Shown here: piece by piece, positions 2,009-6,392 of the stretch | Numbering within the stretch: position 1 is the first letter of the stretch | Layout of the letters: each line of letters starts with the position of its first letter | DNA from: Thermoplasmata archaeon | GTDB taxonomy: Archaea; Thermoplasmatota; Thermoplasmata; Thermoplasmatales; Thermoplasmataceae | Length of the DNA stretch: 8,937 nucleotides | Direction: 5' to 3' | NCBI GenBank assembly: GCA_021811505.1 | Contig: JAJZOM010000048.1 | Span: forward strand, 1 to 8,937 | Translations under genes and position numbers: made by a program | Notes under the pieces: generated by a model | What the model was told of the DNA's origin: nothing | The model's database searches: none | Seen by the model: the letters and a program-made list of their open reading frames with translations, nothing else

Positions 2009-2584
2009 TCATTTTCTTCTGTTGAAATAGAAGTACAATATGAACATCGCAGCAATAATGGCAACGATAATCCCAATGTTCCGGTACTCTGTGGCAAGGC
2101 CATGAACTTTTGGCGTCGACCACGAGAACCCTGGATAAGCTCCGGCATTCAGGGCTTCCAGGTTTGTGAGTTTGCCGCTGTTTCCGGAAACGAGAGACTC
2201 CAGATTGGCTGTCTTATTGAAGGCGAGAGTGAAATTATGTACATCTGGGAAGCCAATCTGGGACAATGCGTAGACCAGTTGCATACCGTATGGATTCAGT
2301 CCGGAATACGATAGATCAAACACTATCAGGTCCTGCGTGGCATTCTGGCTCCAGTTATATGTTACGTAGGTCTTGTTGTCTATTATGTCGTTGAAGAAAT
2401 TCAACCACTCTGAGTCAGTGATTGTGTAATGTGATGACCCGCCGTTTATGTAATATGTAACAGAGGGAAGATTGAACGGGGCAGGATTGAGGGTAGGTCC
2501 ACTGGCTGCTGAGGCAAACGGGCTTAAAGAAACCGCTAAGAAGGCAACGAGTGTAATGACAGCCAGGTACTGATTCTTGTTCAT
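2009..2584 (-). CDS. Secreted, membrane-anchored surface protein of unknown function (191 aa)
   Basis: I do not recognise the family. The protein starts with a typical Sec signal peptide (MNKNQ, hydrophobic core 7-20, likely cleavage after ASA near residue 26). It ends with one membrane helix (about 169-187) and a short positive tail NRRK, a type I topology with about 140 residues outside. Five N-X-S/T sequons (N70, N77, N81, N117, N123) all lie outside, and there are no cysteines. The ATG at 2584 is preceded by TTTTATA about 37 bases upstream, giving a leader of roughly ten bases without a clear SD. It lies 49 bases downstream of the giant surface protein gene on the same strand, with its own promoter but possibly also reached by read-through. 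A partner role with the giant protein is only an inference from position and shared topology. Confidence 0.85.
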   Translation of the reverse strand: MNKNQYLAVITLVAFLAVSLSPFASAASGPTLNPAPFNLPSVTYYINGGSSHYTITDSEWLNFFNDIIDNKTYVTYNWSQNATQDLIVFDLSYSGLNPYGMQLVYALSQIGFPDVHNFTLAFNKTANLESLVSGNSGKLTNLEALNAGAYPGFSWSTPKVHGLATEYRNIGIIVAIIAAMFILYFYFNRRK

Positions 2585-2633: not shown

Positions 2634-5600
2634 TTATTTTCCGGTGTTCCTCATTACGTATATCCTTCCATCAGGATCGCTCTTGAATTTTATTATTCCC
2701 TGATCATTCAGTCTGGATAGGGCTATTCTGAGGACTTTCAAATCGATTCTCTCACGCTTTGCCTCTGACATTATGCTCCGTTTTTCAGATCCTGCATTCT
2801 TAAGAATCAGTTCTTTTGCTAATTCCACATCCTTTATGCTCATGACTCTTCTGCGATAGATCAGGATACTGGCGAAGATCAGAATAAGTAACTCTGGAAT
2901 GAATCCGGGTACGAAAATGTGATAACTCCTGACGATCTCAGTTGAGTGGTACTGCACGATGAGGGTAATGTTGTGGTACCCGGGCATTATAAATGTGAAA
3001 AAGCTGGGACTTCTGCTTGCTGTGTGCCCATCTACCAGCCAGGTTAAATTTACCGGCTTGAGGTTAACCCCGGAAATACCTGAGGAGAAGAACGAGATGC
3101 CCATGAACATGTCAAATCGCGGGTCAAGTCCACTTATATCGGAAAAATAGTAGTTGCTGAACCTTACTGTTGAACTTACATTTCTGTTGCCGCTCTTGTC
3201 TACCGCAGAAACTGTAACGTTGAAGTTGCCGTCGCGGGTGAGGTTCAATATAAACGATCCATTGGAATACAGTGTGCCTGCGTCTACCGTTTTATTGTTC
3301 AGACTGACCTGAATCCTTGAGATCGGAATCTGATCTACGATGGAGTAGTCAACGATCGCATAGTGCGTCCAAATGAGTGTATTGTTCTCCGCAGACACCA
3401 TTATCTCCGGCCTAGAGTCTGAATAATATACTCTCACCACTGATGTATTGCTGTTCCCCCAGGTGGATGTTGCGGTCACTCGCAAGGTATTATTGAACCC
3501 AGGAAGGCTGAGGTTCTCACTGGATTTGAGTATCATTCCGGAAAAACTGGTTCCGTTTCCGGATATCGTGTAGTTATAGGATATATTCGGGAGAAGCCTG
3601 ATAATGAGCGGGAAGTAGCTTGAATTTGTGTATGAAGTCCCGTTTAATATTGGGTTCACGGGTATTGAGTTATTCAGGTCAATGTAAAAAATCTCAGAGG
3701 TTCTCTCCCCGCTCAGATCTACTGCAGTAACGTTCACTAGGTAGATTCCATTCCCCTGTAGATTGAAATCAGCGGGATCAATTACAAAACTCCCGAAGTT
3801 CCCTGCAGATGAAAATGTCTCTTCTCCTCCTCCAGGAGAAGTAACGTTCAGAAATAACGATGAAGTAACGTTGGAGGTCACGTTGATCTGCATTCGATCG
3901 AGGTTCGAATTTCCGTAGAATGAATAAAAGTAACCAGTTGTTCTGTTTATGCTGATTTCCGGGGAATAGTTCTCAACTGTCACATATTCATTGCCTATGG
4001 AGGTAAAATTTCCATCGAGGAGTGTGGCATTGAGGAATATCCGGTAAAAGCCGTCAGGCAAATCCAGCAACGAAAAGTTCTGTGAAGTATTGTAGACCAG
4101 GTGATGTCCGCTTGAAACGATAGTCAGGCAGTAATGGCTATGATATTCCACCGGTTTCCAGCTGAAGTTGAATTTGTTGAAAGGCAGGTATGAATTGTTT
4201 TTAATATTTGCAGAAAAATTCATTATTTCATTAGGGACGACATTGTATTCGAATCTATACATCCTCAAAATACCAAACTGGTCCTTCAGATCAAGGGTGA
4301 GATTCAGGACACTTGTGTTGGTGTTGGCAGTGAAATTATATGCGTTTCCTGTAAATGAATAGTTGAAAAAACCAGATGATATGTTGGAATATAACTGGCC
4401 GGAGATGTTGCTTATGGATACACTGAATAACTGATCTTGAGATATATAGGACATATTTCCAGGGTCAATTTTAATCTCGGGTTTGTAGTTGTCAACATGC
4501 ACCTTCTTTACCAACGAAAGTGAGTAACCTGCGTCGTTAGTGGCATTGAGATAGAGGAGACTTGTTCCGTTTCCTATTTCTGTGCTTGAGAAATTCAGGT
4601 AACCATTCGAAGGGGTGAGGGTCAAATTTCCCACATGCGAGTTTTCAGTGCAATTCAGTCCGGAGGAAACGCTGTAACTGAAGGAGACGTTTCCGGTCAA
4701 TACTGAAGGGCCGCTCAGGCTCCCGTTGATTGAGTATCCGGAGAACGGGAATTTCCCGGTAAAGAATATCGACAAATAACTGCCGTTCGCAAGGAATCCG
4801 AATGAAAGATTTCCCGTAAAATAAGCATATGCGGTTGTTCCAGGCAAATTTGTATTATGCGTTATGTTTCCGGAGACAACTTCCATGGTGCTTCCGGATG
4901 AAATTACGCTTAAACCAGTTTCGGACCACAGGGGAGCTGTTGAAGTCACCTGGACGGCAACCGGAGAATAAATGATGTTTTCAAAGAGATATTCGCCAGG
5001 AATATTATTCCCCGGATGAATTTCCGAGCTGAAACAACCGGAAAGATTTGACGAAGCCGTTAGGACAGTGGAAGTATCAAACATCTGTGCGTTGTACAAG
5101 TTACTATTTTCTGACAGGGAACCACTGGAATTGAGGCTGTAGTTTGATATTTCCATGGAACTTGAGTTCATGGCCATGAGAATAATGTGCTGATTCTGGA
5201 CGGACGACAGGATCACTTTCTGATCGAAGTTCGAAGAAATGTTTGCCCATCGGCTGGTACTGCTGGTCGTATTATAAATCCAGACTTTTCCGCTCTCATT
5301 AATCAGGAAAAAATTCATGTCGAGGACAGTGAGCTTCGGGGAGTCTATTTTAATCGGTCCAAAGTCGTATTTAACAACTGAGAGGGAAGTGGTGTTTATC
5401 ATGAACAAATTGGAATTATCCTGAAATGAAACGAAGAAGTATGCGTATTTCCCGTCAGAATAAGAAGCGGCCCAGTCTGCATTTCCCGAAATATTTTTCA
5501 GAATCAGTGTGGTATTGTTATAGTAGTTGAAGAGATAAATTCCAGGCATATTCCCGTTCTCCATGAATATGATGCTGTTCAGTTTCCAGTCAGCAACAGG

Positions 5601-6392
5601 ATAAGCTCCGAAGGTGCGATTTCCTGTCACGTTACTGTGTACGTTGAATTTCTGCACATTGTACGCAATGGACGATCCCGTTCTGAGGCTTCCGAATCCA
5701 GGCGTGCCATGCGACAGATAAATGTTGTAGATTGTTGCATTTGAGAAACCGCCCCCAATGACTGCCTGGAGGGAACCATTCGCGAAGGTGCCGTTCAGAT
5801 TTATCGCATACGGGAGACTCGATGTGGTGTTCCATCCTCCCGCGATTCCAAAATATCCTGTTTTCCCGGTGTCGGGTATTGAAAGCTGAAGCGTGTAAAA
5901 AGAAGAGATAGCAGGGGGACTGCCGAGATAGTACGAATCCGTTCCGTTTACATATGCTGTTGAGGAGTGGTACAGAGGACCAAATACAAAATTCAGCAGT
6001 CTGCTGTTGTTCTGTTCAAATATCATATTGTCCCATGTCAGTCCATAACTATTCTTGTAATTCCAGGAAAACGTGATCTTCAATGTGAAATTGGACGGGA
6101 CACTCATGTTCATGGTTACAAAACTGTTCTTGCTCGTTGTTGTAGGCTGTGTGGATATCTGGAAACCATTTCCTATTGAGGTTTTGTTAATTCTGGCATA
6201 AGAGTTGGAATTCATGGATGATTCAAAGGTGATCCAGCTCTTGTTCGAAGGAAACGTGCCGGGAGAAAGGCTGGAGAAGTTATAGTCCGATATTGGGGAT
6301 CCCTGTGGAATTGTTGACCCGTAACTCATGAAAGGGGTTATTCCCGATAGTATAATTATAACAATTAATACCAAAATGCTAATTACTTTCAT
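2634..6392 (-). CDS. Giant glycosylated surface receptor-like protein with cytoplasmic winged-helix domain (1252 aa)
   Basis: The N-terminus is a signal peptide (hydrophobic 3-18). An ectodomain of about 1130 residues follows. Residues 35-228 look like a jelly-roll/LamG-like sandwich. Residues 250-480 have aromatic, repeating beta segments, possibly a propeller. About six Ig-like modules end near 633, 717, 806, 905, 990 and 1078, and a PKD-like module spans 1105-1160 (WLVDGH, then [11 protein letters not shown]). One membrane helix (1161-1179, [19 protein letters not shown]) is followed by RRR. The cytoplasmic tail (1184-1250) reads as a winged helix, with [16 protein letters not shown] as recognition helix and DPDGRIYVM as wing. 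About 71 sequons lie in the ectodomain and none in the tail; there are three cysteines. The layout resembles membrane-associated HTH regulators (COG2512-like). ATG at 6392 gives a near-leaderless start. The ligand and target genes are unknown; a pure adhesin or S-layer-like role remains possible. Confidence 0.88.
3159..4760 (-). repeat. Tandem Ig-like modules within the giant surface protein
   Basis: Residues about 545-1078 contain roughly six beta-sandwich modules. Module ends share a pattern of V/L-x-A/V-x-D-x-x-G followed by a V-rich last strand, e.g. [12 protein letters not shown] (888-899) and [14 protein letters not shown] (1060-1073). End points fall at about 633, 717, 806, 905, 990 and 1078, a spacing of 84-99 residues. 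Linkers after three of them share P-E-I-x-I/V (PEI at 638, 811, 995). Similarity is at protein level only; I see no long DNA repeats. Confidence 0.55.

Follow-up and report, generated by a model that had tools for sequence, protein, structure and literature searches.

A large surface protein with a winged-helix tail, a candidate one-component receptor of Thermoplasma-type archaea

The window analysed here is a stretch of 8,937 nucleotides from a Thermoplasmata archaeon (contig JAJZOM010000048.1, assembly GCA_021811505.1), and its minus strand carries a gene, which we call memWH, for a 1252-residue surface protein with a cytoplasmic winged-helix tail. The anatomy of memWH is well supported by computation. 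Judged from sequence, it is likely to be a receptor with a winged-helix output; whether that output would be DNA binding is about an even call. The reading we favour, tentatively and at slightly less than even strength, is that memWH is a single-pass surface receptor whose winged helices would act on DNA as a one-component transcription regulator. An earlier, sequence-only reading had placed a membrane helix and tail at 2912..2637, which corresponds to memWH residues 1161-1252. The parts of the protein are as follows.

2634..6392, minus strand: memWH, surface protein with a cytoplasmic winged-helix tail (open reading frame of 1252 amino acids; orthologues; tail and head ranges)
6318..6392, minus strand: predicted signal peptide or N-terminal hydrophobic segment, residues 1-25 (hydropathy exceeds 1.6 in the 19-residue windows that start at residues 1-10; called from hydropathy alone)
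5703..6302, minus strand: L-type-lectin-like (concanavalin-like) beta-sandwich, residues 31-230
4743..5651, minus strand: beta-propeller-like region, residues 248-550 (low confidence past residue 430)
2919..4595, minus strand: Ig-like stalk and membrane-proximal domain, residues 600-1158 (sub-threshold Ig-like matches at 1021-1078)
2856..2918, minus strand: single membrane helix with a G-F-x-P-E motif at its outer end, residues 1159-1179 (about)
2847..2855, minus strand: RRR, positive-inside anchor, residues 1180-1182
2649..2837, minus strand: winged-helix core, residues 1186-1248 (AlphaFold2 model, fold matches, alignment)

That the tail is a winged helix had been proposed from the letters alone, and structure prediction and fold search bear this out. 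The AlphaFold2 model (mean predicted local distance difference test, pLDDT, 88.8) has three helices followed by a two-stranded wing: H1 at residues 1186-1198, H2 at 1204-1213, H3 at 1218-1230 and wing strands at 1234-1238 and 1244-1248 (H9-21, H27-36, H41-53, E57-61 and E67-71 in model numbering). The strings originally quoted for the tail, DPDGRIYVM among them, turn out to be H3 plus the wing. Its top matches among solved structures are winged helices, including some that bind proteins (Rpa2 with primase, cullin WHB, Rpc34, TFIIE), and the best Pfam match is TFIIE_alpha, at E=0.02 and 15.2 bits, below the cut-off of 22.9.

Across the family the tail is basic and constrained. Net charge averages +5.6 (range 0 to +11) over 28 aligned rows, a set that leaves out L001, which is 94% identical to the window; counted over the same 58-residue span, it runs from +1 to +10 with a mean of +5.4, and 28/28 rows are basic. 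Four positions in H2 hold lysine or arginine in 75-86% of rows, and a basic residue stands at H3 position 1222 in 64% and at 1223 in 57%; the tail has a conserved basic stripe. The ratio of nonsynonymous to synonymous substitution (dN/dS) in the tail is 0.20, 0.67, 0.42, 0.16, 0.15, 0.055 and 0.088 for the seven computable pairs, an eighth (L021-L025) being saturated, and 0.10-0.20 in the ectodomain where computable. By these values the tail is constrained, evolving for the most part under purifying selection.

The topology is inferred from the sequence. Hydropathy above 1.6 in 19-residue windows is confined to residues 1-28 and 1156-1186, with a maximum (mean 2.33) at residues 1159-1177 and RRR at 1180-1182, so the single helix followed by three arginines stands as first described. 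The sharp change in composition was likewise real: asparagine falls from 11.4% in the ectodomain to 4.1% in the tail and lysine plus arginine rises from 4.4% to 26%, the ectodomain also holding 14.9% serine. Among 29 memWH orthologues, some of them cut short at the N-terminus, the ectodomains hold 1617 N-x-S/T sequons against 622 in shuffled sequence, whereas the tails hold 9 against 10 expected. This enrichment ends at the membrane, as it should if the ectodomain, presumably glycosylated, lies outside and the tail inside, and an inside tail is supported both by the sequon pattern and by the positive-inside RRR, as the sequence-only reading had supposed. The distance from membrane helix to tail is fixed, with no gap in 29/29 rows, and at its outer end the helix keeps glycine 1163 in 24/29 rows and proline 1166 in 22/29. 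A reading of V-PGF-IPE, helix and RRR as a PGF-CTERM signal for an archaeosortase was rejected, since TIGR04178 (archaeosortase) matches 0/19 family genomes searched, memWH has no NCBIfam PGF-CTERM match, and a domain of about 70 residues follows the basic cluster.

The ectodomain had been called sensor-like and unusual, and a lectin-like head, a propeller-like region and an Ig-like stalk agree with that description. In a weak model the head looks like an L-type lectin combined with a beta-propeller: its fold match to propeller and Ig-like proteins comes at pLDDT 61 and TM-scores of about 0.2, and pLDDT is below 50 in residues 431-554 of the propeller-like region. The stalk (445-542 profile positions) is absent from 4/28 orthologues, which retain head and tail. 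One genome (G037) holds, besides a complete copy on contig C12, a second ectodomain copy at C27:4-2949 on the minus strand, cut by the contig end and without a visible C-terminus.

The nearest relative genome (G001) belongs to family f1, of which Thermoplasma volcanium is a member, and memWH is present through nearly all of it. A single-sequence search finds relatives in 35/61 genomes, all of them f1, and a full-length profile reaches the C-terminal end (position 1222 or beyond, of 1226) in 50/55 f1 genomes, the exceptions being G027, G030, G036, G072 and G075. A profile of the tail alone matches 34/37 f1 genomes at E <= 2.5e-8, 17 of the 18 listed f1 genomes outside the profile-building set, and, in a class-wide draw of 250 genomes, 33 f1 genomes at E <= 1.9e-11 (the 190 non-matching genomes of that draw are not listed), with one strong match per genome. 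Of the weak matches outside f1 that were opened, L114 and L118 are MCM helicases and L116 a MarR regulator by Pfam, L115 and L117 are MCM-like by eye only, and L112 and L113 are surface proteins of a second family, described below. In 33 loci, from 32 genomes (L066 and L067 are one genome), the tail ends 32 of the 36 frames that match the full-length profile, which makes it no accident. Of the four tail-less frames, three are the upstream parts of split genes, one from L062 and two from L068, and the fourth, in L066, runs into a contig end; no frame with a head and a complete C-terminus lacks the tail. memWH is spread across two or more frames in L062 (G008, in its N-terminal part) and in L068 (G013, in several pieces, with pelota and glyceraldehyde-3-phosphate dehydrogenase in pieces too), perhaps through sequencing or assembly error. 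The T. volcanium orthologue is annotated as a hypothetical protein, and we found no description of memWH or its tail at title and abstract level in open-licence papers.

How might such a protein work? With the signal peptide first and the C-terminus inside, the chain would cross the membrane once. The lectin-like head and propeller-like region would bind or monitor something outside, perhaps a glycan, held above the membrane by the Ig-like stalk and the conserved membrane-proximal domain, and one helix would couple them through about six residues to the cytoplasmic winged helix. Binding or clustering outside might then alter how the winged helices pair or where they lie within the cell; these would most likely act on DNA, and so on target genes, at the membrane.

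A number of observations weigh against this reading. Foldseek returns nothing at E <= 0.001 for the tail, whose best sequence-profile match is a designed protein. The surface residues of H3 are variable, and the tip of the wing is acidic (D1239 in 28/28 rows, D1241 in 24/28). The higher tail dN/dS values, 0.42 and 0.67, are the two pairs with L002, measured over 70 codons. H1 starts only about six residues past the membrane, which argues against direct DNA binding. Upstream of memWH the DNA is nearly identical only in the three closest relatives, by-eye alignment failing beyond these, and no shared motif was seen by eye among 16 upstream regions. One f1 genome of 96% completeness (G075) has no memWH match. 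Finally, no large uncharacterised protein was seen in the displayed part of a mass-spectrometry table of T. acidophilum chromosome proteins (PMC7325993).

A second family of the same class, f15, supplies the strongest argument against taking the tail simply as a DNA-binder. Two distant tail-profile matches (L112, L113), without a Pfam match at E <= 0.01, are f15 surface proteins; each has a single membrane helix towards the C-terminus, basic residues and a tail resembling a winged helix. A search of f15 gave matches in 15/31 genomes, and the 11 loci in which a matching frame was read all have the same layout (L120, L121, L123 and L130 are not in this count, and L119 and L112 are one gene). Twelve f15 tails (L112, L113, L122, L124-L129, L131-L133) align to the memWH family tail with a profile-profile probability of 95%. 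Like memWH, the f15 proteins have an ectodomain, a single C-terminal membrane helix, basic residues and a homologous tail of about 60 residues; they differ in being shorter, in having a longer and often proline-rich linker and an ectodomain that, unlike that of memWH, looks PKD-like from GDG-type motifs read by eye, and in the acidity of the tail. Net charge is -3 to -8 in 12/12 f15 tails, with a mean of -5.6, whereas seven helix-turn-helix-type control domains from f15 carry +2 to +7 (seven of eight, as L139 is cut short by its locus; L134 and L135 are identical). DNA binding in f15 therefore looks unlikely.

If homologous tails can be acidic, a protein-binding output becomes a serious rival for memWH as well: the tail would signal or anchor by way of a partner in the cytosol (RNA polymerase, for instance, or something TFE-like or cytoskeletal) and leave DNA untouched. 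The protein-binding winged helices among its fold matches, the acidic wing and the closeness of the tail to the membrane all fit such a role. We nevertheless consider it somewhat unlikely, for the memWH tails are basic in every row and keep their basic stripe, and no partner gene is constantly linked, a frequent neighbour, p191, being adjacent in 24/33 loci and standing elsewhere in others.

There are two further readings. memWH could be a structural surface glycoprotein or adhesin whose tail has no regulatory output and serves only as a tether, either to the chromosome or to anionic lipid heads, as might be expected of a very large, sequon-rich ectodomain with a lectin-like head and Ig-like stalk, a basic patch beside the membrane and, in G037, an additional contig-cut ectodomain copy. 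The displayed part of the chromosome protein table lends this no support; the tail is folded and conserved rather than simply basic, with one strong match per genome, and it stays where the stalk is lost, no frame with a head and complete C-terminus being without it. We regard this reading as unlikely. Alternatively, a protease might cut in or near the membrane helix and free the winged helix as a soluble regulator. Glycine 1163 and proline 1166 could mark a kink or cleavage site, and the short linker would hinder access to DNA while the tail is membrane-bound; an archaeosortase-type cut is itself unlikely given the TIGR04178 and PGF-CTERM results, and we consider cleavage signalling improbable.

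The favoured reading, a membrane-bound regulator, has several known counterparts. In ToxR, CadC and TcpP the winged helix is N-terminal, and in ToxR/CadC-type proteins the outside domain is C-terminal. memWH reverses this order: it has no N-terminal cytoplasmic winged helix but a C-terminal one, behind a signal peptide and an ectodomain of more than 1100 residues. What it shares with these transmembrane transcription regulators (TTRs) is a membrane helix and a cytoplasmic (winged) helix-turn-helix in one protein, and it has the TTR layout of a predicted membrane region and a winged helix-turn-helix in a single chain (PMC10269533). According to the survey by Demey et al. (2023, PMC10269533), membrane-bound regulators are widespread, with 1,384 in archaea and representatives in 367/404 archaeal species, and a single pass is the commonest TTR form. 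That survey used Pfam DNA-binding models together with TMHMM. No curated Pfam DNA-binding model of the kind it used recognises the memWH tail, and as the window tail falls below Pfam cut-offs, a Pfam-based TTR survey would probably miss memWH. ArnR and ArnR1 of Sulfolobus acidocaldarius are, like memWH, archaeal membrane-bound one-component helix-turn-helix regulators, but their helix-turn-helix lies at the N-terminus, they have two membrane helices at the C-terminus besides a putative HAMP and sensor domain, and they have no large ectodomain (PMC6396743).

The sequence-only reading had also pointed to COG2512-type membrane-associated proteins, and this comparison holds in part. DUF7343 (PF24034), which we take to be the COG2512-type membrane helix-turn-helix, is found above cut-off in 45/61 related genomes. 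Its membrane-bound members opened here (L090-L101, of about 150-220 residues) have two or three hydrophobic segments in 11/12 cases, and eight matches of 327-378 residues (L142-L149) have no membrane helix. The membrane-bound proteins occur in genomes of the same order and, like memWH, have a C-terminal winged helix behind membrane helices. None of the members opened has a large ectodomain, the wing motif is G-x-TNE-I-x-L as against D-P-D-G-x-x-Y-x-M in memWH, and the mean charge of ten DUF7343 domains from same-order genomes is +3.1. The window tail has no PF24034 match at E <= 1; a profile-profile comparison of the memWH tail with the ten domains gives a probability of 79% over 49 columns. 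The two thus appear only distantly akin, DUF7343 membrane proteins being a second, distantly related type of membrane regulator in these genomes. For the ectodomain, BT4663-type structures (PDB 4a2m, 4a2l) are among the top fold matches of the weakly modelled head, and the BT4663 hybrid two-component sensor has, as memWH appears to, a propeller and Ig-like ectodomain. BT4663-type proteins have a cytoplasmic DNA-binding domain; memWH, by contrast, has neither kinase nor receiver, and its helix runs directly into the winged helix. Membrane-bound winged-helix regulators are already known in archaea, and what is new is the ectodomain architecture and this tail family.

Besides memWH, the minus strand of the window carries pelota, a Mut7-C RNase domain protein and a frequent memWH neighbour that we call p191; the plus strand carries glyceraldehyde-3-phosphate dehydrogenase (GAPDH), a Rad51/RadA protein and a truncated frame that matches ACT weakly.

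2009..2584, minus strand: p191, 191-residue secreted protein with a C-terminal membrane helix

Across the 33 loci the genes flanking memWH broadly keep their order, and p191 lies within about 0.7 kb of memWH in 24 of them. In the other nine it stands beside a broken gene (L068), lies 4.3-4.4 kb away (L047 and L054, of genus g2) or about 9 kb away (L069), is not found within the locus (L056-L059), or is lost to a contig end (L066). In the remaining g2 loci the two genes are mostly adjacent. Neither Pfam nor NCBIfam matches p191 at E <= 1; the protein is 40-61% identical to the window copy in 18 aligned family members, and ends in FNRRK in the window. A single copy occurs in 85/91 genomes, including families without memWH, where it stands beside other genes. 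p191 may be a surface partner of memWH, but the non-adjacent loci and its occurrence without memWH weaken the idea that it is an obligatory one. In three f1 genomes (L086:9345-12572, L087:9650-12955, L088:4171-7467) p191 neighbours another surface protein, about 1,100 residues long, with one C-terminal membrane helix and no match to the winged-helix tail. Four loci of one genus (L039, L040, L041, L066) have no GAPDH match between memWH and radA, where about 0.4 kb is left. A 108-residue frame on the minus strand at 1637-1963, between p191 and the Mut7-C gene, is matched among the 33 loci only in that of the nearest genome (L037) and may not be a gene. Rfam has no match within the window, and tblastn found no memWH relative in viral contigs.

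To our knowledge, environmental sensing by wall-less acidophilic archaea has been little studied. It is possible, though the balance leans against it, that memWH represents a new receptor class among the one-component systems of archaea: a single helix, at fixed spacing, would join a lectin-propeller-Ig surface protein directly to a winged helix, in a design that recurs in a second family with a different ectodomain and the opposite tail charge. Surface contact would then be read at the membrane without kinase, second messenger or soluble factor, and wall-less Thermoplasma-type cells might in this way sense their own or their neighbours' surface glycans. The case also suggests that families whose winged helices score below cut-off can escape surveys of membrane-bound regulators that use curated DNA-binding models, and the acidic tails of f15 provide a natural comparison of a DNA-binding with a protein-binding output. 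Present through nearly the whole family, T. volcanium included, memWH is a testable candidate for such sensing.
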